From the NCBI RefSeq assembly GCF_963678975.1, contig NC_089274.1, forward strand, positions 22,095,133 through 22,159,132: DNA of 64,000 nucleotides, in the 5' to 3' direction. The translations under genes were made by a program, and so were the position numbers. Positions 5,571 to 64,000 of the stretch are shown piece after piece. The DNA comes from Dysidea avara (taxonomy: Eukaryota; Porifera; Demospongiae; Dictyoceratida; Dysideidae). Each line of letters starts with the position of its first letter. Positions within the stretch are counted from its first letter, which is position 1. The notes beneath the pieces are model-generated. The model saw only the letters and a list, made by a program, of their open reading frames with translations. It was not told the DNA's origin and searched no databases.

Positions 5571-5887
5571 CAGGGTCGGATTCAGACTTATGGAAAGGGG
5601 GGTCAAAAATGAACTGAGGCACTACATTGTCTCTGGTTTGATAAGGTGAGACCAAAAAATGAGAAAAAAAGGTCACAGCCAGCTGAAAATAGCTGCCCAC
5701 CTCACCAACCACGCATTTATAGCTGATACAGTACATAAAAATCCTTAAATAGCTCACTACACACTGTTCTACTACTGTGACTGCTTTATTAGAGTGACTG
5801 CTCTATTAGAGTATCTCGATCTTGGTATACTAAAAATTTTTGGAAGGGGGTCAAGAGCCCCCTTTGACCCCCCCGTATCCGCCTCTG
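5571..5887. mobile_element. hAT-type MITE, 317 bp, unit 1
   Basis: The left end CAGGGTCGGAT pairs with the right end ATCCGCCTCTG as an imperfect terminal inverted repeat. The 8-bp direct repeat GGCTGCAT flanks it at 5563-5570 and 5888-5895, the length typical of hAT transposons. There is no transposase inside. It contains two tandem copies of the CTCTATTAGAG motif near 5785-5825. The same insertion is present in unit 5 (57257-57580) but absent at the equivalent place in unit 6 (near 62960), so it predates the block duplication. Confidence 0.8.
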
Positions 5888-6130
5888 GGCTGCATCATGA
5901 GTGCATCATTAAAATTTATGGGCAAGGCCTTGATTTTTCCATTGTGGTTTCCAGTTTGGTAATGGACAGAGGTTAGGGGTCCCTGCCACTGACAGATTTG
6001 AACATCAATAATACTTCAAATTTCATGATTTCATGGATGTAATATAAACTATTTCAATATAGCTATGCTTGGTTCCCTTTAAATCCTAAACATTTATGGC
6101 TGGTCAGGTATTGAAGTGGTCCGAATTTTC

Positions 6131-6249
6131 TGGGTGGTTCTATGTGTATCTTGTCCTTACAATACATCATCATTACATCATTGTGTAATTGTTTAGTATA
6201 TACCACAGTAGTAGGAAAGTGTAGTTAATAGTAACACTGGTAATATGGG
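6131..6249 (+). repeat. Left terminal inverted repeat of the 12.1-kb element
   Basis: 119 bp, identical by eye to the reverse complement of 18121-18239. It begins TGGGTGGTTCTATGTG and ends where the 18-bp minisatellite begins. Confidence 0.9.
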
Positions 6250-7655
6250 TAGCACTGGTAACATGGGTAGCACCGGTAGCATGGGTAGCACTGGTAGCAT
6301 GGGTAGCACCGGTAACATGGGTAGCACTGGTAACATGGGTAGCACTGGTAACATGGGTAGCACTGGTAACATGGGTAGCACTAGTAGCATGGGGTAGCAC
6401 TGGTAACATGGGTAGCACTGGTAACATGAGTAACACTGGTAACATGGGTAGCACTGGTAACATTGGTAGCACTGGTAACATGGGTAGCACTGGTAACATT
6501 GGTAGCACTGGTAGCACTGGTAACATGGGTAGCACTGGTAGCATGGGTAGCACTGGTAACATGGGTAGCACCGGTAGCATGGGTAGCACTGGTAGTATGG
6601 GTAGCACTGGTAACATGAGTAACACTGGTAACATGGGTAGCACTGGTAACATTGGTAGCACTGGTAACATGGGTAGCACTGGTAGCACTGGTAACATGGG
6701 TAGCACTGGTAGCATGGGTAGCACTGGTAACATGGGTAGCACTAGTAGCATGGGGTAGCACTGGTAACATGGGTAGCACTGGTAACATGAGTAACACTGG
6801 TAACATGGGTAGCACTGGTAACATTGGTAGCACTGGTAACATGGGTAGCACTGGTAACATTGGTAGCACTGGTAACATGGGTAGCACTGGTAACATTGGT
6901 AGCACTGGTAGCACTGGTAACATGGGTAGCACTGGTAGCATGGGTAGCACTGGTAACATGGGTAGCACTGGTAACATGGGTAGCATGGGTAGCACTGGTA
7001 ACATGGGTAGCACTGGTAACACGGGTAGCACTGGTAACATGGGTAGCACTGGTAACATGGGTAGCACTGGTAACATGGAAAGCACTGATAGCACTGGTAA
7101 CATGGGTAGCACTGGTAACATGGGTAGCACTGGTAGCACTGGTAACATGGGTAGCACTGGTAGCATGGGTAGCACTGGTAACATGGGTAGCACTGGTAAC
7201 ATGGGTAGCACTGGTAACATGGGTAGCACTGGTAACATGGGTAGCACTGGTAACATGGGTAGTACTGGTAACATGGGTAACATGGGTAGCATGGGTAGCA
7301 CTGGTAACATGGGTAGCACTGATAGCACTGGTAACATGGGTAGCACTGGTAACATGGGTAGCACTGGTAGCACTGGTAACATGGGTAGCACTGGTAACAT
7401 GGGTAACACTGGTAACATGGGTAGCACTGATAGCACTGGTAACATGGGTAGCACTGGTAACATGGGTAGCACCGGTAACATGGGTAGCACTGGTAGCATG
7501 GGTAGCACTGGTAGTATGGGTAGCACTGGTAACATGAGTAACACTGGTAACATGGGTAGCACTGGTAATATGGGTAGCACTGGTAACATGGGTAGCACTG
7601 GTATCATGGGTAGCACTGGTAATATGGGTAGCACTGGTAACATGGAAAGCACATA
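6222..7655 (+). repeat. Subterminal 18-bp minisatellite array, left arm
   Basis: About 80 degenerate copies of GGTAGCACTGGTAACATG, with 9-bp half-unit deletions and variants (AGCATG, ATTGGT). Because the unit is a multiple of three with no stop codon, several frames stay open for hundreds of codons on both strands. These are not genes. Higher-order blocks repeat, for example the segment near 6420-6600 recurs near 6605-6760. Confidence 0.95.
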
Positions 7656-9686
7656 GGTAAGTTGGATATGCTATGCACAGTATCATGAGTGAAGTTGACA
7701 TAGGTAATACAGGTGTTATTAAGTAGGAATTATGACCAATGATTATTGTATTGCAATGCTGTAATATGTACCAACGCTACCAGTGCCCATGTTACCAGTG
7801 CTACCCACTACCCACTCATGCTGAGGTCGGTAGTTCACATTATAACTCCCCTCCCCAGCTGCAGGAAGCTGACTAATTGCCACTACATTCTATATGTTTG
7901 TGCGTACAATTGTGCAATGTTGTTTTCAAACATTGTTATTTCTTTGTATATTATCTTACTGCTTTAGTGGCAATACTAACATATCACATATTTGAAAGTG
8001 CAGTTCTACCTGAATAGACATGAGTGTACCAATAACACAGGATCTTGCTAAGACGAAAAGCAAATACCACATGGCTACATTGATAGTAATGATAAGCACT
8101 AGTATGGATAGGCGCTAGTGTGGCATGCTTTTATCAGCAGTCTCATGTCTGTGCTTTCATCTAAGTGCATACAAATTACTGCTACAGTAAAAAATAGACT
8201 GCTAAAAGAAGCAGCTAGGACAAAAAATATTATAACTGCCATCTTTATAAAAGTGGACCAATCTTGGTGGGAGTGTTCATAAAATAAAAATAAATAAAAG
8301 TCACCTTCCACTTGGTAAAGTAACTGACAAACCATTGGGCTGCAATTATAAGGGATTGAAAATTCTTGAGTAAAGTGCTAATAGTTATACACTTGAAAGA
8401 AAAAGCCAACAAACAGAATGGCTACACATTCAGTAATGTGGATGGAGCCTCACATAACAACAGATAATAGTTCACATGCATTTCAATATTATAGAGATTT
8501 AGACTAAGTACATACATATGCCAACACTTAGCCATCCACAATGCAGTAGCGAATGTTTAGTTGGTGTATCATGGGAGCAAAATGCTTTTATTAAAAAGAC
8601 ATTTAGCACAATACTAAAATCTTGAAACAGTATCATTAGTTAAATACCCCACCTCACTTTAATCTACCATTGGGTCCATAGCATATTTTATGCTCTGTGT
8701 AAGGATACATCTTTGGTGCTCCTTTTTACTACCTTAATCATCATAAGTTAAGCACTTGTAACAAATGTGTTCACAATGTGATTATAGGCTACATCTCATG
8801 CCCAAGTTTGAGTGACTGGTTAACAACACCTTTCTTGCATACTAAACAACTCCTTTCTTGCATACTAAAGAACTCCAAAAAAGTATTGCTGGCAGAGTTG
8901 CAACATTGTAACTGCTTTTAAGTCTTACAACAACCTAAAATATATTTCAACCATGAAGACTATGCTGAGTGCTGTTTCACACATAATGTTATTTCAACTA
9001 CAACTCAAGAGTGCTCTCTCCTCTTCCTTTTAGATGGTGAATCTGAACTTGTTTGTGCCTCTCCCCTTGTCTCCTTCACCCCCTGTTTATATGCCTGGTT
9101 AATAATCATTCATAGGAGCATGAAATATTGTTACAGGATCATGATGCTTGGGTGGAAAGACAGTTCATTACTGTCTTTCTGTGGCCCTCTAAATTGGTTT
9201 AATTTTGGCATAAATCAAATATAGATCCCAAAATAGTCTGTTTTGCACCTAAGCATTATGTTCCTTTCTTGCTGGCTAGGCAGTTTACCACTACTTGCCT
9301 AATTTAATAGGCCCCTTCACCTGTACACCTACCAAACCCACACCCAATCATGTTGACTGGATGCTTGCTTCCTTCAGAATTCTACCTCATGTCCAGGCTT
9401 TGTGATAGAGGAGGGTATAAAGGCAAGGAATAATATTAATGTAGTAATGACTCCTACTGTTTTTTGGGAAAACCAATATCCAATATATTTTTACCATGTC
9501 TTACTGATAGTTAACTGATACGTTTCTGCAAGTTATACTTGTGTATATATTCCACCAAAAGTAGTGCTAGTAAAGCCAGCCAATGCTGATATTGTACACT
9601 TAAAGTTGGTAGTCAGACAAGAGCAGCCTAAACCATCACTGTTTATCTTTGTGGTTTCTACAAAACATCAACTTAAGTAGTACCAG
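7656..9686. other. AT-rich interior of the 12.1-kb element, no gene seen
   Basis: No credible coding region or RNA gene is visible. At 7768-7815 there are two or three units of the 18-bp minisatellite in the opposite orientation to the main array (CCAGTGCCCATGTTACC), a remnant of rearrangement. Confidence 0.6.
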
Positions 9687-10777
9687 AGCCTTGGGTGTCT
9701 GGATTCAGTGGAATAGAATGGTGGAATGAAATGGTGGACTGGAATGGAATGGTACTTAGTTAATTTCAGTCAGTAGTCACCTCTTAATAAAGACCACCTG
9801 TTTACAAAGATCATTTTATTGTTGTTTAGAGTGATATATCCCTATAAGACAGTCTTATCAATGAATTGTGTGCCACATGTTGTGTCTAGAAAAGCCAGAG
9901 TGATATCTGATTTATTATAAATACAGTAATAGCTACCCCATACAGAAACAGCTTGGCTATATACAAAAAAAGACGATACATCCACAAAACTAAAAGCAAT
10001 GCAACTAATGGAGCTAACATTTGGTGTAGCCAAGAAATGAATGTTAATTATACTGGCAACTAAAAAATCTTGGTCTTTTATCATTGACTTGTGTAGTCTG
10101 CTGTATTCCTAATTAATTCCCTGTAATTGGTACCTTTTCCAATTGTCATTATAGAGGAGAAAAAGGCAGCTAAATTACTAGAAAATTATAGTTAAAGGTA
10201 TACGTAATTATTTAGAAATGCAGCAACACTGTGCTTAGTCAGTGATAAAGGACCAATTTTTTAAAAATTATAGCCAGTTAGTTGCTAGTATAGACATTCA
10301 TTTCTTGTACTCACCAGATAATGATATCTGGTGAGGCCATGATATCTGGTGAAGCCAAGAAATGAATGTCAATACCGGCAACTAACTGGCTATAATTTAT
10401 AAAAATTATTCTCCTGTAGTTGTCAGTTATTTTTAGCTTGATGGGTATGTCAGTTTTGTACAGCCAAACTGATTTTGCATGGCTGTATTACAAATCAGAT
10501 ATCACTCTGACTTTTCTAGAGCATGCGGCACACAACTGATCAATAAGACCATCCTATGAGGATACACTTTAAAACAACAAGATAGCAGCAATTTAAACTT
10601 AAAAGTTAAACAGTGTTCATAAAGAGGTGGTCTTTGTTAGAAGGTGGTCTTTATAAAGAGGTGACTAGTAATTGAAATTACCTAAATACTATTCCATTGC
10701 GCCATTCAATTCCAGTCAACCATTCCATTCCAGTCCATTCCACCATTCCATTCCACTGATCCAGATGCCCCAGAGCC
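9687..10777. mobile_element. Foldback/MITE-like element with long imperfect inverted ends
   Basis: The left arm (AGAGCC TTGGGTGTCTGG, then CAGTGGAAT and repeated GGAATGG) is mirrored at about 10685-10777 (ATTCCATTCCACTG, then ATCCAGATGCCCCAGAGCC). Further matching inverted stretches lie inside, including GAGGTGACTAG against TAGTCACCTC and the CTAGAAAAGCCAGAGTGATATC segment. No protein is encoded. The target duplication was not resolved. Confidence 0.6.
10258..10410. repeat. Long palindrome inside the foldback element
   Basis: The left arm AAAAATTATAGCCAGTTAG through CATTCATTTCTTG is inverted in the right arm CAAGAAATGAATG through CTAACTGGCTATAATTT. The loop near 10310-10350 holds a repeated ATATCTGGTGA. 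The arms are about 55-60 bp with few mismatches, so a strong cruciform or RNA hairpin is possible. Confidence 0.75.
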
Positions 10778-11464
10778 TTTGCCACCAGCCTTCCGGTGGT
10801 ACTGCAGCTGCTGCTGCTAAATAGACCAATAATCTGCTGGCCACAGCCCATTACAACCAATTTCCAATTATAGTAAAAACAGCTAATTATCAGCTTCTAG
10901 CAATCACCGGGTTCTAGAAATCACCGCTCCGATTAGTAAAACTCTAGTATATTTGTACTTTCATGTGCTGACTGAACTTCTGGGATTCCTTGTACACAAT
11001 ATTGTTTTGTAAAATGATGAATCATTCCTTATCACCATGCTTTTAAGCAAATCTAGACTGTTGAACTCCTGTAAGTCTGATTGTATGATTTGTGTTGGAT
11101 CGAGCAGCAGTTTTCAGATAGACCGCATTGGCATCCTGAATCAAAGCTAGTGTTATTACTTGAGATATAGGCTTGTCTGGGTCTAGAAGTTTCTTTGACA
11201 CTTGTTTAAAATATAAAATATTGACGAAGAGTTATGGATACCGCCATTTAACAACATACTGCTGTGTATGTACATGCCCACACTATGCACATTTGACAAC
11301 CATATAATTGAATATTTTGTATAATAGAATGTCTTGACATAAATTTAAGAATTATTTATTTGAATTATATACAAAATTATAAACCCTTCAAAAATAACCC
11401 ACTCTATGGAATACTGGTACTCTTAGCATTACTGTACAAGTAGAAGGAAAAATTAAAATTCGGC

Positions 11465-11858
11465 TAGGTTGGGCAATATTGAACTTGTGACATGCGATTA
11501 TTACATGAGGCAATTATTGCAATATTGCATGTGAAAATTGAAACACAACCACAGAGTGAGACAAGCCAGAGTCCATATAACTACTTGTTTTCATTGAGAA
11601 TTAGGTTAAAAGCACAATTTCTTTGCTAACAAGGTAACAAACTGGCATAGTTAGCAATGACATGCATGAACTGTATCAAATGTGAGGCCTAGATCAGAGA
11701 TGCAAAATAGATAATAAATGCAATGATTATTGCAAATTATGATAAATGTTGCCTATGTAATAATATTACAAAGGTGAAAACTTGCGTCTTGTGATAATAG
11801 TATTGCAAGAACTTGCTTAGGTGATGTTGGTGATTTATTGAAACATTGCCCAACCTTA
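11465..11858. mobile_element. Small MITE with AGGTTGGGCAAT ends
   Basis: The left end TAGGTTGGGCAATATTG mirrors the right end CATTGCCCAACCTTA. The interior is AT-rich with partial self-complementarity around TATTGCAATATTGC. There is no ORF and no clear target duplication. Confidence 0.5.
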
Positions 11859-12354
11859 GAAGTACATAAACAAGTAAAAAGTAGTGAGATTTCCTATACC
11901 TGCATATTTAATTTACTAGTAGATGTTGCTTAATCCCTAATTCAGTCAGTATAGAATCAGAGATTAATGTCTATACACTATAGTATGTCTGCAGTATACT
12001 TTTTAAAATGATAAATACACAAGTACCATAAACAAAACAGAAAGCTCATACAGAAATCAGTTCTTTAAGCGTGATTCCATTCTAACCAGATCCATTGGAG
12101 GTGGAGTTCTGTCAAAGTGACCAGATGATGATCAAGCACCATGGATACAGCCATCATACAGGCAATAGCAGAGTGCAGCAAAGAAAAATGGCAACTGAGC
12201 CAGCCTAGAGTAACCGAGTAACTATCCCCCCACTCAATGGACAAAAGAGAAGCCAGACGTTTGTAAAAGATAGTGGCTTCATCAGCCAGACCTCCAGTAT
12301 ACTTGAACATTTGTTAACCTTTTACATGCATATTGAATTATAGCTGGTGAATCC

Positions 12355-12445
12355 ATACGTAATGGTAATACGGATAACAATGGTGATATGGGTATAAGTA
12401 AAAGTAATCCTGGCAACATGTGTAATACTGGAGACATTGTACTGT
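12355..12445 (+). repeat. Decayed relic of the 18-bp minisatellite
   Basis: Units of the form GGTAATAC, GGATAACAATGG, GTAATCCTGGCAACATG and GTAATACTGG resemble diverged copies of the terminal minisatellite. This suggests the repeat was once present in the interior of the large element. Confidence 0.4.
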
Positions 12446-12632
12446 AGCTATACAGCTGCATATAAAAAGTGTAAATATACAATTGGCTTAGTAGCATTTC
12501 TAACTCATATGAACTTACAAATCTAGGCCCCTTTAGGCAGATCGCCTTAATGGTAAGTACAGATCACTGGCCACTGAGTGATTTCAGAATTTATTCCATA
12601 TTTTTTGATATACGTGACTGAATCAGCGAAAA

Positions 12633-15224
12633 GGGGTCTTATAGCCTTTCCAAATTTTGCAAATTTTGATGAGTTATAACTGATATGTGTTTAACTTATT
12701 GTTTTAAAATTACATCCAGGAATATTACTATGTTAGGAGTGTAAAGTGAACAAATTTCAGGCTGGTACCATACTTACATGTCAAGTTATGGATTACCAAG
12801 TATATGCAATTGTGAATGCATCAAGTAAAAACGGAACCTTAGACGCGTTTATACTTTTTGAGATAATTGAACTTGGAAAGTTTAGAAATATATTTTCGCG
12901 TACCACACAGATATTTGGGTATATTTATTAATATTACCGCATATTTCCGTGCCGTTTAAGACATGTGGAATCCACGCCGAAAGTAACAAGAAGGAAGGAA
13001 AGAAGAAAGGAACAAAAAGAGCGTCAAGGCATCCATACTGCCATACACCGTCCCTGGAAACTTCGTTTTCAGAAGGTAGTTCTAATGACACCAGCGGGAC
13101 CAGCCTTGACAACAGTGCGGGAACTACTACACAAAGTGTTTGTTCAAAATGTGAGCCTGTTCTCCGATACGCCGATATATTTAAGCAGTTAGTTCATCAA
13201 GGCACTGAACTAAAGAAAAAGAAGAAGGTTAATCCCAACCCCAAAAAGCCTGGTACACATTATCGGGATGTGAAGAGCCAGAATGACTGGTTAACAGAGA
13301 ACATGTTTGACGCCATGGGGAACTATCTTTTCTGTTGTGCATGTGTTAGAATCGCCTTTGGGATATCCAAGCAAAGGATTGCTCGTCAAAGAGTTATAAA
13401 GAGAAAACAGTTTAAGGAGCCATTACAGAGTATGTCAAAAGGTGAAGTTGAAAAGGAACATCTTGGTGAGTATGTTGTGATGCCAGAAGATTTAGATGTT
13501 AGTTTTAAGAAATGGTGGAGGTTTCTTGATCCATCTGCCACAGTTGATGTTAGAACTCCCCATTCAAGACACGGAAACAGTGGAAAAGTATCTAATTATA
13601 CCAAGACATGTGTTATGAATGATTTTCTAGAATTTGTTGATGTTAACAGTCAGCCGAATGGCCGTAGTGCAGACTCTACTGGTCCAACATTTTACTTTCT
13701 TCCAAATTTTTCTACAATACAAACTCCTAAAACTGGTATTGCCAACTATGAAGAACGTGCTAGACGATCAGTTGTAGGAGAATTCAAGCGATCACAACAT
13801 GAGGCTGGCAAAGGAGAGTGTTCCAATGCTTCATCCCATAACTGGCTTAAGAAGCATCGACCTAAACATGCAGTTTGTCTGCATCAAGAAGACTATTGTG
13901 ATACTTGTGCAGAAATGAAGACAAAGATTTCCTCACAACAGACTACCATAAATCGTAAGAAACAATCTTCTGATACCTTGCCCGATGATCTGAAGCACTT
14001 GGAAGATGAAGTAAGTGGTATGAAACATTCACTAGAGATACATCGTGAAGAAGCGAAAGGAGCACACGACTACTATCAGAAAGTCACTGTACAGTGCGCT
14101 GATGAGTGGGAAAGAATTTTAGAGTTTGTTGAGAAGCCTTGCCTTACAGAAACTGAGGATAGGGAATTAGCAACATTGAAGCACAAATTTAACCTTGTTG
14201 TAAGTGCAGACTACCAAATAGGAAAGCTAGTTCCTTACTGGGGTGAGTCACCTCAGCCTGGTAGCACCTACTATTTTCAGAAACTCAACCGCGATGTGTT
14301 TGGCATTGTCAATCATGCCACCAATAAAGCTGCTGTGTACTTGTTTGATGAAAGAATTAGTCCAAAGAATACAGACCATACAGTTTCCTATCTCACTCAT
14401 TACCTTGCTGGTTTACCAGATTTTGTGCGTCGGGTACATTTGTTTTTGGATAATGCTTCTAGCACTAATAAAAACTGTTTTACAATGGCTTGGGCTATGG
14501 AAATGATTCAGTAAGGTAAACTAGATTTTATTCGTGTATCATTCATGATTCCAGGTCACACCAAATTTGTTCCTGATTTGTTGTTTTCAAAAATTTCAAA
14601 AACATACAATAAAAGTGATGTATTTACTACAGAAGAGCTACAAAAAGTAATCCTTCCTTATGCCGAAGTTATTGTTGATGATGGTAGTATTGTGTCAGAC
14701 TGGCGAAATAAGCTATCAAAATACTCCAAATTTTTGGGTATTCGTAGCCTCTATGACTTCCTGTTTGTAAAAAATTCAGCAACTGGAGAGGTTGTCAGCA
14801 AAGTACGGAAGCTCTGCTACACTGGAAGCTATACCAATTGTACTATACACCTGCAAAGTGATCGAAGTATTGATGAAAATGTGTTATGCACTGAAGATGA
14901 TACCTACAAGGAAAAAAATTGTACCAAACAAATATCTGCAACCAAACTTGCTAATCTTAAACACATGTACACTACTTTTATTTCAAACAAACGTTGGCTT
15001 TCATTTTTATAACTGTATGTACGTATACAATTGTCATCAATTAATGACGTGTCAGTTATGGGCTGAAAAACTATGGATTCTATACCTCATATCCTTACCA
15101 TTTTTGGCATGTGAACAGTCAATGCATTGCACAACATCAGTCTAAAGTAAAAGTTTTTTTTTAAGTATGTCTAAGGTTCCATTTTTACTTGATGCGTTCA
15201 CAATTGGAAAGACTATAAGACTCC
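12633..15224. mobile_element. DNA transposon with interrupted inner inverted repeats
   Basis: 12633-12655 (GGGGTCTTATAGCCTTTCC) is mirrored by 15202-15224. 12807-12844 (CAATTGTGAATGCATCAAG onward) is mirrored by 15169-15206. The two blocks are adjacent on the right but separated by about 150 bp on the left, so one arm has gained or lost an internal segment. The arms bracket the DUF7869-like gene. This could be a nested transposon or the core of the 12.1-kb element. Exact outer ends are not resolved. Confidence 0.65.
12949..15012 (+). pseudogene. DUF7869-like transposase gene broken by one stop codon
   Basis: One frame runs for about 688 codons with a single TAA at 14512-14514 after residue 521. 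Reading on in frame across it gives family-like sequence, so it is a nonsense change and not an intron. Seen in order: a Lys-rich N-terminus; a CxxC pair near residue 66; a Cys/His cluster (VCLHQEDYCDTC) near 307-318; a coiled-coil-like acidic/basic stretch at about 345-375; SADYQIGKLVPYWG near 418; FLDNASSTNKN near 499; and, after the stop, GHTKFVPDLLFSK. Acidic residues in SADY, LDNA and VPD could form an RNase H-like triad; this is inference. Proteins with the LDN...NKN and GHTKF signature are repeat-associated in many invertebrates. The true start is unclear: codon 12949 is GTG, an in-frame stop lies at 12883-12885, and an upstream exon is possible. Confidence 0.7.
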
Positions 15225-15329
15225 TAATCACAGATCTGGTCACATATACTTGCAAAGCAGAATGCAAAGTTGTAGACAAAAAAGGAAAGTTACAAATATT
15301 GTAGTTTTCTAAAACTTACAATGAATGCA

Positions 15330-16540
15330 CCATAGACATCTCATGAGTACATCACATGTGTATCATCTAAGGTACATATCATGAGTACTTAAAGTGTGCA
15401 TCACAAGTGTATCATTAAGGTGCACAGCTTGAGTACATCACATGTGTATCACTAAGGTACACATCATGAGTACTTGAAGTGTGTATCACAAGTGTATCAT
15501 TAAGGTGCACATCATGAGTACATCACATGTGTATTACTAAGGTACACATCATGAGTACTTGAAGTGTGTATCACAAGTGTATCATTAAGGTGCATGGCAC
15601 GAGTACATCACATGTGTATCACTAAGGTGCACATTATGAGTACTTGAAGTGTGTATCACAAGTGTATCATTAAGGTGCACAGCATGAGTACATCGCATGT
15701 GTATTACTAAGGTACACATCATGAGTACTTGAAGTGTGTATTACAAGTGTATCATTAAGGTGCACAGCATGAGTACATCACATGTGTATCACTAAGGTAC
15801 ACATCATGAGTACTTGAAGTGTGTATCACAAGTGCATCACTAAGGTACACATCATGAGTACTTGAAGTGTGTATCACAAGTGCATCACTAAGGTACACAT
15901 CATGAGTACATCATTAAGGTACACATCATGAATTGTGTGATCACAAGTGCATCATTGAGGTGCACATCATGAGTACATCGCATGTGTACCACTAAGGTAC
16001 ACATCATGAGTACTTGAAGTGTGTATCACAAGTATATCATTAAGGTGCACATCATGAGTACATCACATGTGTATCACTAAGGTACACATCGTGAGTACTT
16101 GAAGTGTGTATCACAAGTGTATCATTAAGGTGCACAGCATGAGTACATCACATGTGTATCACATCATGAGTACTTGAAGTGTGTATCACAAGTGTATCAC
16201 TAAGGTACACATCATGAGTACATCATTAAGGTACACATCATGAATTGTGTGATCACAAGTGCATCATTGAGGTGCACATCATGAGTACATCGCATGTGTA
16301 CCACTAAGGTACACATCATGAGTACTTGAAGTGTGTATCACAAGTGTATCATTAAGGTGCACATCATGAGTACATCACATGTGTATCACTAAGGTACACA
16401 TCGTGAGTACTTGAAGTGTGTATCACAAGTGTATCATTAAGGTTCACATCATAAGTACATCACATGTGTATCACTAAGGTACTCCTCGTAAGTACATGAA
16501 GTGTGTATCATTAATGTATGTACAAATCAAGTGTGTGTAT
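15330..16540. repeat. Minisatellite with an 85-bp composite unit
   Basis: About 14 imperfect copies. Each unit combines a half with CATCATGAGTACTTGAAG, TGTGTATCACAAG and ATCATTAAGGTGCAC, and a half with GAGTACATCACATGTGTATC and ACTAAGGTAC. Halves share GAGTAC and the TATCA..AAGGT core, so the unit itself came from a smaller repeat. It lies just outside the right inverted repeat of the DUF7869-like element. Confidence 0.9.
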
Positions 16541-17366
16541 CACATGTGTATTCATCAAAAGTCTATGAAAGAAGAGATGTCTACTCTGTCCTGTATGACC
16601 ACATTTTATCTACAGTGGGACCTTGTTTATCTGAACCTGCTGGGGCCAGCCCTGTTCATAATTGGATAATCTGTGACTTCGAATCATCCATTAGAGTATG
16701 TATAAATGCAGTCACTTACTCACTATATACCTGTTAAATGATGGTACTCAATGATACTACTGTAATAAGAGCACTTTGCACTTCAATACAAGTAGATTAC
16801 CCCACTGTCTACTGGGGTTTGGTCTGTGGTCACTACCAAACTATCAATTAATTAACCAATGGTTACCACCAAACCATCTTATTCCATTCCAATGTCTTTG
16901 AATGGCTGCCCTCCAGCTGGCAAGCAGCCCTGTCAGCCCTGGCGGCCCTTTGTTGATGGAGAAATGCTGTATTAGATTATGGACTCTTGGTATACCATAA
17001 CAGTACATAAAGTGTATATGTGATCGAATCTGCAAGGAAGGGACCTTTATACCCTTCAGTTTGACTGATTATAACTTCTCATGTATTTGAGCTATTTCAA
17101 CCCCAATGGGATCAAATGGACATTAGTAATGCCTTAAAGTAAAAGTCGGTTCACGATAGCGTAACACAGTTCTCTCTGCTACAGTTGTTAAAAACTTTTC
17201 TTTTACAATGAGCTATAACCTGAGACTGGGAAAGTGGTGTCTATTGGCATGTGTGTCCAAACAGTGCTACCCATGAAGTGAACACTGGCTAAAGTCTTGA
17301 ATTAAACTTGCTTTACAAGTGATAATGTACCGGTACTGCTGTGTGATAATTACAGTACTGCTGCGT
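16541..17366. other. Unassigned interior of the 12.1-kb element
   Basis: No credible gene or RNA is seen. ORFs here are short and show no family features. Confidence 0.5.
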
Positions 17367-18146
17367 ACATGCTATCAGTGCTACCCATGTTACCAGTGCT
17401 ACCCATGTTACCATGTTACCAGTGCAACCCATGTTACCAGTGCTACCCATGCTACCAGTGCTACCCATGTTACCAGTGCTACCCATACTACCAGTGCTAC
17501 CCATGTTACTAGTGCTACCCATGCTACCAGTGCTACTCATGTTACCAGTGCCACCCCTGTTACCAGTGCAACCCATGCTACCCATGTTACCAGTGCTACC
17601 CATGCTAACAATGCTACCCATGTTACCAGTGCTACCCATGTTACCAGTGCTACCCATGTTACCAATGTTACCAGTGCTACCCATGCTACACATGTTACCA
17701 GTGCTACCCATGTTACCAGTGCTACCCATGCTACCAGTGCTACCCATGTTACCAGTGCTACCCATGCTACCAGTGCTACCCATGTTACCAGTGCTACCCA
17801 TGCTACCAGTGCTACCCATGTTACCAGTGCTACCCATGCTACCAATGTTACCAGTGCTACCCATGCTACCCATGTTACCAGTGCTACCCATGTTACCAGT
17901 GCTACCAGTGCTACCCATGCTACCAGTGCTACCCATGCTACCCAAGTTACCAGTGCTACCCATGTTACCAGTGCTACCCATGTTACCAGTGGTACCAGTG
18001 CTACCCATGCTACCAATGTTACCAGTGCTACCCATGTTACCAGTGCTACCCATGTTACCAGTGCTACCCATGCTACCAGTGCTACCCATGCTACCAGTGC
18101 TACCCATGCTACCAGTGCTACCCATATTACCAGTGTTACTATTAAC
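17367..18146 (-). repeat. Subterminal 18-bp minisatellite array, right arm
   Basis: About 43 copies of the same 18-bp unit as 6222-7655, on the opposite strand (reads TACCAGTGCTACCCATGT). It is about half the length of the left arm, with a different arrangement of 9-bp deletions. Confidence 0.95.
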
Positions 18147-18239
18147 TACACTTTCCTACTACTGTGGTATATACTAAACAATTACACAATGATGTAATGA
18201 TGATGTATTGTAAGGACAAGATACACATAGAACCACCCA
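18121..18239 (-). repeat. Right terminal inverted repeat of the 12.1-kb element
   Basis: Reverse complement of 6131-6249 with no difference seen. It ends GAACCACCCA, followed by the 6-bp duplicate ATTTTC at 18240-18245. Confidence 0.9.
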
Positions 18240-19536
18240 ATTTTCTCCTATTGAAATGAAAAGCTCAAGATTTAGCTTAGTTTAAATTCCAACTATATTA
18301 TTTCTAAAGTACCGTTGTATTTTGTATTCCATTACGAATGTTCTATTAGAGTAGTCTTGACTGCTGTGTTAGAATAGATCTCACTGATTACCTTTCAGTT
18401 CTATCTTTGTTAAATCAATCTCCACAGTGTCAAGATTTTACCAAAAGGTAGAGACATGCTTCCCAGATTACAAAAACAGCTACAGACAAAAAACCGTCCT
18501 TGTTCTCTCTTAATTTAATTTTGAATAATCAATGTAAGTTTCTTATTACACAGTATATAGGTCTACTGTCCTGTCCTGCCGGTCACCCTATTCTGTATAT
18601 CTGACAACTCTCACAATTTCACCATGAGACTTAAGTTTTAGGCCTCTTTACTTTTCAAGGTGTCATGGTCAGATACTAATTTCTCAAGGCCACACTTTGG
18701 ATTTCAAGAATTCTTGGATTTCAAGGTTTTCAGCTGGAAACACAATGCAAACCCAAATATTTAATATAAGAACTCTTAGTATCTAAGCAGCCTATATCCA
18801 CCTAGTTTTGAGCATGTTAATGTTAAAACCCAAAGCTGGACAGTTTTGATAAATAGTTAATCTGTTCTACATGTACTTTGCATGGCTGCCTTTAAAACAT
18901 TGCTATTGTGCGTATGTATACTTAAATCATTGTCCAATAAAGAATCTGAATTTGTTCCACAGGATGAGAAATAAAGAAGCATTATCCCTCCATCAATATT
19001 ATATACAACCATAGAGTTTTGTTAAGACACAACACACCATGGTGTGATTTAAGGTAATGATTCTAATGAAAAACGGGCCCACTTTATCAAAGATAAGGTA
19101 AATTAATACTTTTGCATGAAAAATTTAGTACATAGCTGCAGTGAGCACTTTCAAGTGTACTGTGGTATGGCACAAGTTAGTGCATGAGAACATGTATAAT
19201 TATATACTATCTGCATGGTTATATATGCATTTATCTTCTGAGTATTATAGTCCAAGCTAGTTGCATGCATGCAGCTGTAGTTCATTTGCATAATGCATTG
19301 TGTGCAAACTTTCAGATGCCACCTCTTGAAGTACAACAATAAGTTATTGATATCAATTTATTTTGTTAAACAGTTGGCTATAAATAGATAAGTAAATTTA
19401 AAATAATGAACTAGCTATAGTAGCTATATAAAAGTATACACAATATAATGGCCTATACCTATGAGAATACATGCAGTAAATACATTTGCTATTAGCTATA
19501 ATATGCCTGCCTGATTGTCACAAGTTAGCAAAATTA

Positions 19537-26464: not shown

Positions 26465-28690
26465 TTCGGCTAATTTGTTTACTCCATTATAGAATTCTAT
26501 TACATTACAAGTTATTCTGTAGGGAGTTCAGCTGCAAACAGTTAATCTTATAGACAGTTCAGCAAGAAGCAAGTCACCCTGTGGGGAGGTAAGCTACAAA
26601 TATATCACTGTAGAGATTCAGAACATTACAAGTCACACTGAAGAGAGTTCAGCTATAAACAAGTCATGCACCCTGTAGAGAATTCAGCTACAATTAAGTC
26701 ACTCTCTAGAGAATACAGCTACACACAAGTCACTGTGGAGAGAGTTCAGCTACAAACAAATTACCCTGTAGAGAGATCAGCTACAAACAAAACACTTTGC
26801 AGAGAGTTCAGCAACAAACAAATCAACTTGTAGAGAGATCAGCTAGAAACAAGTCAACCTGCAGAGAGATCAGCTACAAACAAATCAGCTTGTAGAAAGA
26901 TAAGTTACACAAATCAACCTGTAGAGAGATAAGCTAGAAACAAATAACCCTGTAGAGAGTTCAGCTACAAAAAATCACCCTGTAGAGACATCAGCTAGAA
27001 ACTAGACACAATGCAAGGAGTTCAGCTACAAGCAATCACCCTGTAGAGAGTTCAGCTAAAAACAAATCACCCTGAAGAGAGGTCAGCTACAAAAAATCAC
27101 CCTGTAGAGAGATCAGCTAGAAACAAATCACCCTGAAGAGAGGTCAGCTACAAAAAATCACATTGTAGAGAGATCAACTACAAACAAAACACTTTGCAGC
27201 GAGTTCAGCTACAAACAAATCAACCTTTAGAGCGATCAGCAACAGACAAATCAACTTGTAGAGAGATTATTTAGAAACAAATCAACCTGCAGAGAGATCA
27301 GCTACAAACAAATCAGCTTGTAGAGAGATAAGCTAGAAACAAATAACCCTGTAGAAAGTTCAGCTACAAAAAATCACCCTGTAGAGACATCAGCTAGAAA
27401 CTAGACACAATGTAAGGAGTTCAGCTACAAGCAAATCACCCTGTAGAGAGTTCAGCTAAAACAAATCAACCTGCAGAGAGATCAGCTACAAACAAATCAC
27501 CTTATAGAGAGTTCAGCTACAAACAAATTACCCTGTAGAGAGATTGGCTACAAATAAATCAACCTGCAGAGAGATCAGCTACACACAAATCAACTTGTAG
27601 AGAGATCAGCTACAAACAAATCACCCTGTAGAGAGATCAGCTAGAAACTAGACACAATGCAAGGAGTTCAGCTACAAGCAAATCACCCTTTAGTGAGTTC
27701 AGCTACAAACAAATCAACCTGCAGTGAGATCACCTACAAAAATGCACCTTGTACAGAGTTCAGTTACAAACAAATTACCCTGTAGAGAGATCAGGTAGAA
27801 GGATTCACCTTGTAGAGAGTTCAGCAACAAAGAAACCACCATGTAGAGAGTTCAGCTACAAACAAATCACCCTGTAGAAAATTCAGTTACAAACAAATCA
27901 CCCAGTAGAAAGATCAGCTAGAAGAAGTTACCTTGTAGAGAGTTCAGCAACAAAGAAACCATCATGTAGAGAGTTCAGCTACAAACAAATCACCCTGTAG
28001 AAAATTCAGTTACAAACAAATCACCCAGTAGAAAGATCAGCTAGAAGAAGTCACCTTGTAAAGAGTTCAGCTACAAAGAAACCATTATGTAGAGAGTTCA
28101 GCCTCACCCTGTAGAGAATTTAACTACCACAAATCACCCTGTAGAGAAGAAGTTACCTTGTAGAGAGTTCAGCTACAAAGAAACCATCATGTAGAGAGTT
28201 CAGCTACAAAGAAACCACCATGTAGAGAGTTTAGCTGCAAACAAATCACCTGTAGAGAGTTCAGCTAGAAACAAATCACCCCATAGAGAGATCAGCTGGA
28301 AGAAGTCACTTTGTAGAGACAGCTACAAAGAAATTATCATGTAGAGAGTTTAGCTGCAAACAAATCACCCTGTAGAGAGTTCAGCTACAAAAAAATCACC
28401 CTGTAGAGAGTTTAGCTAGACGAAGTCACCTTATAGAGAGTTCAGCTACAAAGAAACCATCATGTAGAGAGTTCAGCTACAAAGAAACCACCATGTAGAG
28501 AGTTTAGCTGCAAACAAATCACCTGTAGAGAGTTCAGCTAGAAACAAATCACCCTGTAGAGAGACCAGCTAGAAGAGGTCACCTTGTAGAGAGTTCAGCT
28601 ACAAAGAAACCATCCTGTATATAGTTCAGCTACATTTCAAGTCACCCAGTAGACTGAGAGATCAGCTGCAAAAAAATATCCTGTGGGGAA
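26465..28690. repeat. Minisatellite with a 31-bp unit
   Basis: About 70 degenerate copies of GTAGAGAGTTCAGCTACAAA followed by CAAATCACCCT. Variants alternate TTCAGCTAC with ATCAGCTAG. Higher-order repetition is visible (27360-27440 resembles 26950-27040; 27800-27960 and 27960-28080 are near copies). No coding potential. Confidence 0.95.
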
Positions 28691-47156: not shown

Positions 47157-47510
47157 CAGGGCTTCCCAGAGAAATTAAGGGGCCCGGGGCAAAAAGTTAA
47201 AGTGGGGCCCCAAGGTTTCCACTCTGAATCACATGCTGTAAATCGAAGACCAAAAAAAAAAAAAAAAATGGCTGTTACATACTGATAATGACAATAGCTA
47301 CCCCTCACCAACCATATCTCCTTATTTATAAGCTTGCTACGCTGCTTCTCTGAAGAATACTGTGACTGCTCTATTAGAGTATCTAGATCTGATTGCTCTA
47401 TTAGAGTATATCAATCTTTTATTCAAGGGGCTGGCCTCCTGGAGCCCCTTTCAGGCTGGGGCCTGGGACAAAATGCCCCAGTTGCCCCCCCCATCCTGTG
47501 GGTGGCCCTG
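47157..47510. mobile_element. hAT-type MITE, 354 bp
   Basis: The 8-bp duplicate AAGCAAGC lies at 47149-47156 and 47511-47518. Ends are CAGGGCTTCCC and GGTGGCCCTG. It shares internal sequence with the 21911 element in inverted orientation (A-rich tract, CTTATTTATAA, ACTGTGACTGCTCTATTAGAG) and carries two CTCTATTAGAG motifs. Confidence 0.85.
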
Positions 47511-57256: not shown

Positions 57257-57580
57257 CAGGGTCGGATTCAGACTTATGGAAAGGGGGGGTCAAAAATGAA
57301 CTGAGGCACTACATTGTCTCTGGTTTGATAAGGTGAGGCCAAAAAAAAAAAAAGGTCACAGCCAGCTGACAATAGCTGCCCATTTCACCAACCACGCATT
57401 TATAGCTGATAAAGTACATAAAAATCCTTAAATAGCTCACCACACACTGTTCTAATACTGTGACTGCTTTATTAGAGTGACTGCTCTATTAGAGTATCTC
57501 GATCTTGGTATACTAAAAATTTTTGGAGGGGGGTCAAGAGCCCCCTTTAACCCCCCCCCCCCCCCCCGTATCCGCCCCTG
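57257..57580. mobile_element. hAT-type MITE, unit 5 copy
   Basis: Orthologous to 5571-5887, with duplicates AGCTGCAT/GGCTGCAT. A run of 17 C residues (57551-57567) has expanded from the 7-C run in unit 1. Two CTCTATTAGAG motifs are kept. Confidence 0.85.
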
Positions 57581-59115
57581 GGCTGCATCATGAGTGCATC
57601 ATTAAAATTTATGGGCACGGCCTTGATTTTTCCATTGTGGTTTCTAGTTTGGTAATGGACAGAGGTTTGGGGTCCCGACAGATTTGAACATCAATAATAC
57701 TTCAAATTTCATGGATGTAATATATACTATTTTCAATATACCTATGCTTGGTTCCCTTTAAATCCTAAATGTTTATGGCTGGTCAGGTATTAAAGTGATC
57801 CAAATTTTCTCCTATTGAAATGAAAAGCTCAAGATTTAGCTTAGTTTGAATTCCAACTACATTATTTCTAAAGTATACTGTTGTATTTTGTATTCCATTA
57901 TGAATGTTCTAGTAGAGTAGTCTTGACTGCTGTGTTAGAATAGATCTCACTGATTATCTTTCAGTTCTATCTTTGTTAACTGAATCTCCACAGTGTCAAG
58001 ATTTTACCAAAAGGTAGAGGCCTGCATGAGGGTGCTTCCCAGATTACAAAAACAGCTACAGACAAAAAAAACTCGCCCTTGTTCTCTCTTAATTTAATTT
58101 TGAAGAATCAATGTAAGTTTCTTATTACACAGTATATAGGTCTATTGTCCTGTCCTGCTGGTCACCCTATTCTGTATATCTGACAATTCTCATAATTTCA
58201 CCATGAGACTCGAGTTTTTAGGCCTCTTTACTTTTCAAGGTCTCATGGTCAGATACTAATTTCTCAAAGCCACACTTTGGATTTCAAGAATTCTTGGATT
58301 TCAAGGTTTTCAGCTGGAAACACAATGCAAACCCAAATATTTAATATAAGAACTCTCAGTCTCTAAGCAGCCTATATCCACCTAGTTTTGAGCATGTTAA
58401 TGTTAAAACCCAAAGCTGGACAGTTTTGATAAATAGTTAATCTGTTCTACATGTACTTTGCATGGCTGCCTTTAAAACATTACTATTGTGCGTATGTATA
58501 CTTAAATCATTGTCCAATAAAGAATCTGAATTTGTTCCACAGGATGAGAAATAAAGAAGCATTATCCCTCCAACAATATTATATACAACCGTAGAGTTTT
58601 GTTAAGACACAACACACCATGGTGTGATTTAAGGTAATGATTCTAATGAAAAACGGGTCCACTTTATCAAAGATAAGGTAAATTAATACTTTTGCATGAA
58701 AAATTTAGTACATAGCTGCAGTGAGCACTTTCAAGTGTACTGTGGTATGGCACAAGTTAGTGCATGAGAACATGTATAATTATATACTATCTGCATGGTT
58801 ATATATGCATTTACCTTCTGGGTATTATAGTCCAAGCTAGTTGCATGCATGCAGCTGTAGTTCATTTGCATAATGCATTGTGTGCAAGCTTTCAGATGCC
58901 ACCTCTTGAGGTACAACAATAAGTTATTGATATCAATTTATTTTGTTAAACACTTGGCTATAAATAGATAAGTAAATTTAAAATAATGAACTAGCTATAG
59001 TAGCTATATAAAAGTATACACAATATAATGTCTATACCTATGAGAATACATGCAGTAAATACATTTGCTATTAGCTATAATATGCCTGCCTGATTGCCAC
59101 AAGTTAGCAAAATTA

Positions 59116-62062: not shown

Positions 62063-64000
62063 ACTGAGACATACTGGTATGTTCAGGAAAAATACCACAC
62101 ATGTACATTGCAAATGTCAGAGTAAAAGCGAAAGTGGCAGGGCTCAGTCCTAAGGTGTTGCCTAGTCTAGATATGCTCCCCCAGAAAGGCAATTTTGTAA
62201 TACTGTGCATGTGTAAGTTGCTATAGCTAGCTGTCTGACAAGCAGTTAGAAATAGGCACTGACTAAAAAAACACCTCTGTGATACTGTTTAACTCTTAAA
62301 CATTGTAATGATGAGGTAAACTGTAAGGAATGTTTCCACAAAGAAAAACAAAGCTGAATGTAACAATAATTATTTTAAAGGTGCTTAATACAGACTGAGT
62401 GGACATGAAGCTGATCTGCATGGGTGAAAGCACAGGTAGCAGAAAGGGCTACTATCTATGGCAAAACACAGGTTACAGTATAGGGTTGTTTTTATCAGTT
62501 GTTGCCATTAAAACAAAATACTGAATGTTCACTATACTTTTGGTTAGTTTAGCTTCATAATCACTTTTGAGAGTTACTTTTTAAAATTTCAGCCAAAAGG
62601 TGGTGAAGCTCTGTCACACCTACTCTGATGCCCTTGATGATGGTGCATACATATGTGTATGGACTCTAATTATGTCAGCTGTATACCATTAGCCCTTGCA
62701 CCTCAACAGACCATCAGTCTAAAGACTGTGGGGAAGCCTCACCAAGCTGTGTTAAGTGAGCCTTCCTGCGGTCTATAATTTAACAGGATATGAAAAGTGA
62801 AAAATCTAGTTGTTTAGTTCAACTTAGGATTCTCCAAATCCTTTAGACTTAGTCCATAAGTGACATGATGATCACAAAGATAACTTTGGGATCCTGTACA
62901 CCGACCATAACAACCACCATCAGTTAATGGAGGATGAGTACTTTTAATTATGATGCTAAAGATTCATATTACATATTAATAACGAATGACTGCATGCATG
63001 CATTATTTAAATTTATGGGCACATGAAGCTTTGATTTTTTCCAATGTTTGGTAATGGACAGGAGTTTGGGGTTCCTGCTGCTGATAGATTTTGAAAATTA
63101 AAATGCTTCAAGATTTACTAGATTCATAATTTCATGGATATAGTACAAAATATTTTCAATATAGCTATGCTTGGTTCTCTTCAAGTCCTAAATGTTTATG
63201 GCTGGTCAGATATTGTAGTGATCCAAATTGAAATGAAAAGTTCAAGTTTAAATTCCAAGTCAGTCTTACATTTAGTTAGCTGTATAATTTCTGAATAATT
63301 ATTATGAATGCTCTATTAGAAAACATCTGACTGCTCTATTAGAAAACATCTGACTGCTCTATTAGATTATCTTTCAGTGCTACCCTAATCATCTCTGCAG
63401 TGACAAGGTTTCACCAAAAGGCATGAGGCCTGTACAAGGATGCTTCTCAGATTAAAAAACTGACCATGTTCTCCTTTAATTCACTTTCGAGGAATCAATG
63501 TAAGTTAGTATATAGTTGTTAGCCATGCCATAAAATTAATTTTGCATCTGAAAATATGTCTCAACCATCAATTACTGAGAAGTTAAGAGGCCATTATGTT
63601 TTATTTTCAGTTATGTTCAGCCTGTTATATATGAGCAAAGGACAGTATAAGTAAGAAATGTCTCTGCAATTAATACATGGCCACAGAGAAGCCATAATGC
63701 ACTACCACAAATCAACACTTTGTACAGCATGCAAATAAAATGGCTAAGTCCAGGATGCATGTACTGTATGTACTGCAGTGAAAAATCAAGCCTGTAGCTT
63801 TAGTTGCAAACTCTTGCTATTATCGAGTTATGCTTGTCTGAAGGTATTAGTAGTAGATTATAAATTTGTATATGATCCCTAATACACAACTACGTAATAT
63901 AGAGAGAAATGTAACAATGCTTTCGATGATGTTATAGCAGAAAACTACAGGGTGTGGCAGTTGTAGTTATCACATGATATAGTGGCTGCACCTTTTACCA

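Follow-up and report, generated by a model that had tools for sequence, protein, structure and literature searches.

The 64,000-nucleotide stretch of the Dysidea avara genome that was analysed here (assembly GCF_963678975.1, contig NC_089274.1, positions 22,095,133 to 22,159,132; hereafter the window) carries a mobile element of 12,107 bp that starts with GGGTGG and ends with CCACCC. This element is, in our judgement, quite probably a large DNA transposon of the cut-and-paste type, likely non-autonomous and with Foldback-like ends, that is moved in trans, most likely by a Merlin transposase. An earlier note on the window, made from its letters alone, had proposed that a mobile element was inserted here in one event. 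This proposal is now strongly supported by the existence of many full copies in the genome that have their ends, interior and duplications in common. The only sizeable gene inside the element, which encodes a DUF7869 domain, is almost certainly not the transposase of the element but part of a nested passenger transposon. The positions of all features are listed in Table 1.

The terminal inverted repeats (TIRs) of the window copy match over 129 bp without a difference (positions 6132-6260, with the initial G of GGGTGG as the first base). The identity of the ends that had been noted before is therefore real, but somewhat longer than the 119 bp initially reported. Inward of both ends lie opposed arrays of an 18-bp minisatellite, as had also been noted, with a unit (GTAGCACTGGTAACATGG) that consists of two similar 9-bp halves. 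A 17-bp tip sequence is found at two sites only in the window, both of which are element ends (up to 3 mismatches; chance mean of 0.28, with two sites reached in 4 of 100 shuffles). The element is flanked by the 8-bp target-site duplication AATTTTCT, and not by the 6-bp sequence ATTTTC as was previously thought. In the window copy, one base on each side can be read either as element or as duplication, and the phase was therefore settled from other copies; the 6-bp reading resulted from one duplication base per side having been assigned to the element. Polinton/Maverick elements, which have 6-bp duplications and were considered on the grounds of size and the presumed 6-bp duplication, do not agree with the duplications of 8 bp.

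The 551-Mb genome from which the window itself was taken was searched with the 104-bp tip as query, and the best 40 of 56 candidate matches were scored. Thirty-one of these 40 matches form 15 facing pairs, including the window copy and one pair with a doubled end, and 9 matches were unpaired. Both ends were fetched for all pairs and, once the start of the element was set to GG, a matching 8-bp duplication was observed in 15 out of 15 cases. One tip is altered in the copy at C1:28553548, where the 8-bp match holds with that tip taken one base shorter. The outer ends read GGGTGG (GGGTAG once) in 29 of 30 cases, and the altered tip reads GGAGG. The A+T content of the duplications, calculated for the 15 pairs and one relative, is 80% as compared to 63% in the window. 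The lengths of the pairs range from 6.8 to 20.7 kb, with one further pair of 53.9 kb. All 10 other copies that were fetched whole match the interior of the window copy in collinear pieces (arrays masked), and the long pieces within positions 7656-15337 show 95-99% identity in these 10 copies; one of them, C3:35996643, is a deletion form of 6.8 kb. At least 17 places contain the first 1.4 kb of the interior at length, and there is one weak (67%) partial match in addition (best 40 of 376 candidates). The expectation that other full copies would share an interior and a 6-bp duplication was thus confirmed for the interior, but not for the length of the duplication. In one copy, an end is doubled (C2:5488806 and C2:5489165, 359 bp apart), and here the matching duplication is on the outer end. 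The 53.9-kb copy (C2:31308360-31362248) has matching 8-bp duplications and either contains big nested insertions or represents an unusually large mobile unit.

Empty sites are also present. When the flanks of the element are joined at the insertion point, they align in one piece to an empty block at 57.3-58.3 kb of the window, with 91.4% identity over 1,013 bp. The empty site at 57.8 kb that had been proposed earlier is therefore real, but the block in which it lies represents one copy of an interspersed repeat instead of a large unique duplication. The window contains two older empty copies, at 24.9-25.3 kb (73% over 451 columns) and 63.0-63.5 kb (69% over 502 columns), and each of them aligns in one piece over the joined site as well. 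Together, the duplications and the empty sites point to cut-and-paste transposition with an 8-bp stagger.

The mean pairwise divergence of the interior among 10 copies is 1.7%, and the corresponding tree is star-like. In view of this divergence and of the intact duplications in all 15 pairs, movement of the element has likely been fairly recent. The earlier note had come to this same conclusion from the identical ends of the window copy, which is a weaker route. In fact, end identity does not provide a clean clock, because the left tips vary little among copies in general (0.6 base differences per pair over 104 bp versus 1.8 expected at the interior rate, as estimated from 45 non-independent pairs) and because right ends have changed type.

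To which superfamily does the element belong? The earlier view that it fits none can no longer be upheld. The design of the element is Foldback-like, since its long TIRs are composed of a flanking domain and short tandem repeats that are opposed at the two ends, and since the number of repeats varies both between copies and between ends. Ends of this kind arose in different transposon superfamilies (PMC3169594, PMC4079207). Merlin elements are characterized by conserved 5'-GG ends, duplications of 8 or 9 bp and internal tandem repeats (PMC8101967). The GG termini of all 15 pairs and their 8-bp duplications, together with the 8-bp duplication of the relative L063, agree with this description. 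Judging from these features, we regard the element as a candidate new family of the Foldback-like kind for which Merlin seems to fit best, with no transposase tied to its ends.

Several observations weigh against this assignment. Firstly, no transposase with the ends of the element was found when the listed superfamily matches were compared by eye. The best 150 of 447 P-type, 150 of 410 MULE and 150 of 1,875 hAT candidates were scored, and among the matches listed (151 P-type, 150 MULE and 150 hAT), there is none at a distance of up to 25 kb inward of a tip with 0-1 mismatches; this comparison is a weak one, as it covers just the best candidates of each type. Secondly, 21 Merlin-type (IS1595-type DDE) matches were found genome-wide (24 of 24 candidates scored). 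One of them is located inside the 54-kb copy, but this remnant sits in a stretch that shares 99% identity over 1.07 kb with a sequence on C15 that has no tip listed nearby, so that the remnant may itself be nested; none of the other 20 is near a tip with 0-1 mismatches. As for the arrays, their role as protein-binding sites is a putative one.

A Mutator/Phantom identity would be in line with the view that most Foldback elements seem to be of the Mutator type (PMC4079207), with the Mutator-type element Tm1 (PMC3169594) and with the 8-9 bp duplications of Tetris. Yet we consider it rather unlikely, as the duplications are 8 bp in 15 out of 15 pairs without a single case of 9 or 10 bp, whereas those of Tm1 are 8-10 bp and mostly 9 bp, and as none of the 150 MULE matches listed is located inside a known tip. 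It is likewise unlikely that the element belongs to the P superfamily with its transposase encoded elsewhere. This would make it Galileo-like, Galileo being an element in which a P-type transposase occurs together with TIRs that are Foldback-like and internally repetitive, but the duplications of Galileo are 7 bp long (PMC3573991) rather than 8 bp. P-type domains are frequent in the genome (447 candidates), but none of the 151 matches listed is inside a known tip. P ends start with CA. A hAT element, which would have duplications of 8 bp, appears quite improbable. The hAT target pattern is nTnnnnAn and this fits only 1 of 16 duplications; moreover, none of the 150 hAT matches listed is inside a known tip, which, with 1,875 candidates, represents poor coverage.

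The DUF7869 domain (PF25273) is the sole credible protein match inside the window copy. Its frame is interrupted by one in-frame stop, and the two pieces match the domain at E-values of 1e-4 and 8e-9, whereas an open copy elsewhere matches at 3e-21. The gene is bounded by TIRs of its own (GTGAATGCATC...) and a 4-bp duplication, and a standalone DUF7869 unit at C5:33384800 (L051) ends at the same bases as the nested one. The sequence around the insert is a copy of an abundant miniature inverted-repeat transposable element (MITE; 1,112 candidates), and all three MITE copies that were fetched lack the DUF7869 insert: L060 and L061 keep the sequence ...TGCAATTGGAAAG..., and L062 is substituted there. 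The copy at C4:13129272-13141420 has matching ends, an 8-bp duplication (CTAATAAT) and the MITE, and it aligns over the empty AATT site (96% over 336 columns) without the DUF7869 insert. The idea that DUF7869 is present in every copy is overturned by this finding; in the other 14 paired copies, the gene is present, either complete or partial. By interior identity, C4 is the most diverged paired copy (91% versus 93-99% in the other matched pairs). It has the longest branch in an interior tree of 12 copies, and in a tree of 10 copies the unpaired copy C7:17351825 has a longer one. These unrooted trees suggest that C4 may be an early offshoot. Conversely, the DUF7869 unit could in principle have been precisely excised from C4, in which case the empty site would not be original; this would count against our interpretation.

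It is therefore almost certain that the DUF7869 gene belongs to a passenger. The opposite view, in which the element is an autonomous transposon over its entire 12 kb and is moved by its own DUF7869 protein, could build on the presence of the gene in nearly all pairs and on the frame being open in some copies. We consider this very improbable, because the gene has its own TIRs and duplication within a MITE, exists as a standalone unit, and is absent from a copy with an 8-bp duplication, and because the duplication lengths of the unit (4 bp) and the element (8 bp) disagree. Since the gene is a passenger and since C4 has an 8-bp duplication of its own without it, the big element is probably non-autonomous. 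Lastly, a chance pairing of two unrelated MITEs, for which no supporting evidence was found, can practically be dismissed, considering the 15 pairs with matching duplications, the shared interior in the 11 copies fetched whole and the lack of any short pair of this family among the best 40 of 56 end matches; the alternative raised in the earlier note, that paired copies might be missing or that the ends might occur only as solo MITEs, is contradicted by the same data.

DUF7869 is of unknown function in Pfam. Among the DUF7869 elements with both ends, 7 of 8 have a 4-bp AT-rich duplication (AATT, ATTT, AAAT, AAAT, ATAT, ATGT and AGAT; phase set by eye), L051 being the one without a duplication and the truncated L052 having been left out. 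DUF7869 elements that are more distantly related bear ends of their own, which are of the GTGA type. As a marker of transposons with inverted ends and 4-bp duplications, the domain seems to be that of a transposase, perhaps one of the Sola2 type. Sola2 elements have AT-rich 4-bp duplications such as AWWT (PMC3627910), and the passenger is similar to them in duplication type. A search against solved structures gave a single match for DUF7869 (E-value of 0.75), and no description of the domain was found in the literature covered, which included few subscription journals. DUF7869 transposons of 2.4-2.8 kb, which have inverted ends of the GTGA type and in most cases an AT-rich duplication of 4 bp, were seen at C5:33384800-33389600 (L051), C9:35273300 (L053), C3:42958500 (L055) and C4:31809200 (L056). 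Further loci are C5:5768300 (L054), C13:11737000 (L045) and C2:31544000 (L046), the latter with an open frame of 652 amino acids (aa).

We also examined how ends and arrays have changed among copies. There are two types of tip, A and B, of which B is shorter by a net 7 bp and shows scattered changes. When the copies are oriented by their interiors, the left end is of type A in 11 of 11 copies, and the right end is of type A in 7 and of type B in 4. The placement of all A/A copies on one side of a split was rejected (approximately unbiased test, p-value of 0.0014) on an interior tree of 5.9 kb and 12 copies, in which C3:35996643 and C4 are only about 40% covered and several inner branches are poorly supported. 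The right end has therefore switched type at least twice, or else interiors have recombined. On the simplest reading, a B end was replaced by an A (left-type) end, a direction that we infer. The arrays measure 441-2242 bp on the left and 775-2261 bp on the right (10 of 11 copies; those of C3:35996643 could not be placed), and the number of repeats differs among copies and between the two ends of one copy. As judged by shared 30-mers in 10 copies, the left and right arrays of the same copy (0.27) are hardly more alike than left and right arrays of different copies (0.25), so that homogenisation between the arrays within a copy is rejected; the values for left-left and right-right comparisons between copies are 0.50 and 0.38, respectively. 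The two arrays of a copy thus evolve separately.

Related sequences also carry 18-bp repeats. L063 (C1:45487567-45490172) is a 2.6-kb relative with related tips, 18-bp units of a different sequence at both ends and the 8-bp duplication CATATTTT. In another family (C11:3423028 and others), the first 53 bp are shared at 89% and the 18-bp unit AATAGTGGTAATGTAGGT is present in 109 copies; second ends of this family were not found. With 18-bp arrays of differing sequence in relatives, the 18-bp period is probably older than the present unit sequences. For the relatives with diverged ends at C3:41254544, C1:29056021 and C2:36646582, the coding search gave only a reverse transcriptase frame in L059. 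The interiors beside two type-2 ends contained only a 31-bp satellite and arrays. This satellite (CTGTAGAGAGTTCAGCTACAAACAAATCACC) also occurs in the window (26517-28653) and at loci L057, L058 and L077, and the flanks of the 54-kb copy appear to consist of it as well. Three ends of the related family, at C8:4098214, C8:4157590 and C8:4594909, are identical over their first 330 bases and a 15-bp flank and are therefore probably the result of segmental duplications on C8.

Altogether, the following mechanism may be envisaged. At each end, a constant tip of about 100 bp (GGGTGGTTCTATGTG...) precedes the array of 18-bp units. Because no credible coding stretch was found besides the passenger (13 ORFs scanned in 7656-12611), the transposase is probably supplied in trans. 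This transposase, most likely Merlin, would bind the tips and load in many copies via the arrays, bring both ends together, excise the element and integrate it into AT-rich target DNA by cuts staggered by 8 bp. The left and right arrays lengthen or shorten independently of each other, and the right tip has switched type more than once, most simply through replacement by a left-type tip. The DUF7869 passenger, with its 4-bp duplication, would have entered an ancestor and have been copied along since. More tentatively, the family could represent a Foldback-type branch of Merlin in which the subterminal 18-bp arrays form a scalable platform for transposase loading that allows very large cargo to keep moving. 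We regard this as a possibility that is more doubtful than the mechanism as such. If it is true, an array that varies about five-fold would serve cargo of 12-21 kb (54 kb in one copy), complete foreign transposons included, and the sequence of the unit would have changed between families with its 18-bp period kept. The idea that repeats offset a cost of length is testable, given that the arrays range from 0.4 to 2.3 kb, that the ends come in two types and that the 18-bp unit of a related family is a different one. Irrespective of this, the element offers a clean case of a transposon riding in a transposon, with a rider-free copy still in the genome, and a warning to annotators, as a gene that is the only conserved one and occurs in 14 of 15 paired copies very probably does not encode the transposase of the element.

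The interior of the window copy contains several other features (Table 1). Coding remnants were searched for within positions 7656-12611, where 13 of 13 open reading frames (ORFs) of at least 55 aa remained below the Pfam cut-offs, the best match being GWT1 (E-value of 9e-4, 18.7 bits versus a cut-off of 29.6). Positions 16526-17364 contain two further ORFs of at least 55 aa. Long open frames within the arrays were rejected as proteins, since the 18-bp unit would by itself keep the frame. A short motif, TGACTGCTCTATTAGAG, was seen in small tandem groups at positions 5777-5812, 47363-47417, 57460-57495 and 63305-63366 of the window, and also at loci L059 and L063.

Table 1. Features of the window copy and its empty paralogous site (positions within the window).
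Feature	Position	Strand	Remarks
Left target-site duplication AATTTTCT	6124..6131	.	phase set by other copies
Whole element, 12,107 bp	6132..18238	+	one of 15 paired copies genome-wide
Left flanking domain of TIR	6132..6230	+	identity with right end continues to 6260
Left 18-bp minisatellite GTAGCACTGGTAACATGG, 81 units	6231..7645	+	
Family-specific interior, no credible coding stretch	7656..9084	+	at length in at least 17 places; from ~8486 weak (67%) at one C5 site
Nested inverted-repeat stretch	9698..10773	.	in 9 of 10 other full copies, absent from deletion form C3:35996643
Copy of abundant MITE, split by DUF7869 transposon	12610..15250	+	uninterrupted MITE copies L060, L061, L062
4-bp duplication AATT, left of nested transposon	12808..12811	.	
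Nested DUF7869 transposon, 2,390 bp, own TIRs, Sola2-like by duplication type	12812..15201	+	
DUF7869 reading frame, in-frame stop at 14512-14514	12886..15012	+	open in some other copies
4-bp duplication AATT, right of nested transposon	15202..15205	.	
Internal 85/170-bp minisatellite, travels with element	15342..16510	+	also in other copies
Right interior, common to copies	16526..17364	+	in C3:35996643 only 16526-16940 matched in this comparison
Right 18-bp minisatellite, opposite orientation, 44 units	17368..18139	-	
Right flanking domain of TIR, type A	18140..18238	-	
Right target-site duplication AATTTTCT	18239..18246	.	
Single AATTTTCT at empty paralogous site	57803..57810	.	

No description of this family, of a Foldback-type Merlin or of a sponge Foldback element was found in the literature covered, again with few subscription journals. 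Merlin elements share with it the 5'-GG ends, the 8- or 9-bp duplications and, in several families, internal tandem repeats; they differ in having TIRs of 24-462 bp, and the accessible part of PMC8101967 describes no opposed terminal arrays of this kind. Tetris, a Foldback element of Drosophila virilis, has the same arrangement of a flanking domain, a tandem-repeat domain of variable copy number and a non-coding middle, and likewise shows duplications of 8-9 bp in complete copies with no autonomous copy found (PMC4079207). However, its unit is about 220 bp long as compared to 18 bp here, its TIRs reach up to 1.7 kb, and its authors assign it to Mutator. Tm1, a Mutator/Foldback element of root-knot nematodes, is similar in its composite TIRs with a varying number of a motif of about 14 bp and in being mostly non-autonomous (PMC3169594), but it has duplications of 8-10 bp, mostly 9 bp, and a MULE transposase in one form. 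Galileo, a Drosophila element of the P superfamily, resembles the present element in its long, internally repetitive TIRs, in a repeat number that is unequal between ends and in the exchange of sequence among copies (PMC3573991, PMC3688188). It differs in its 7-bp duplications, a repeat of about 210 bp in subfamily F and a known P-type transposase. The sites for this transposase are located within the repeats (PMC3573991, PMC3688188), and the function of such repeats has in part been shown, namely for binding of the Galileo THAP domain (PMC3688188).

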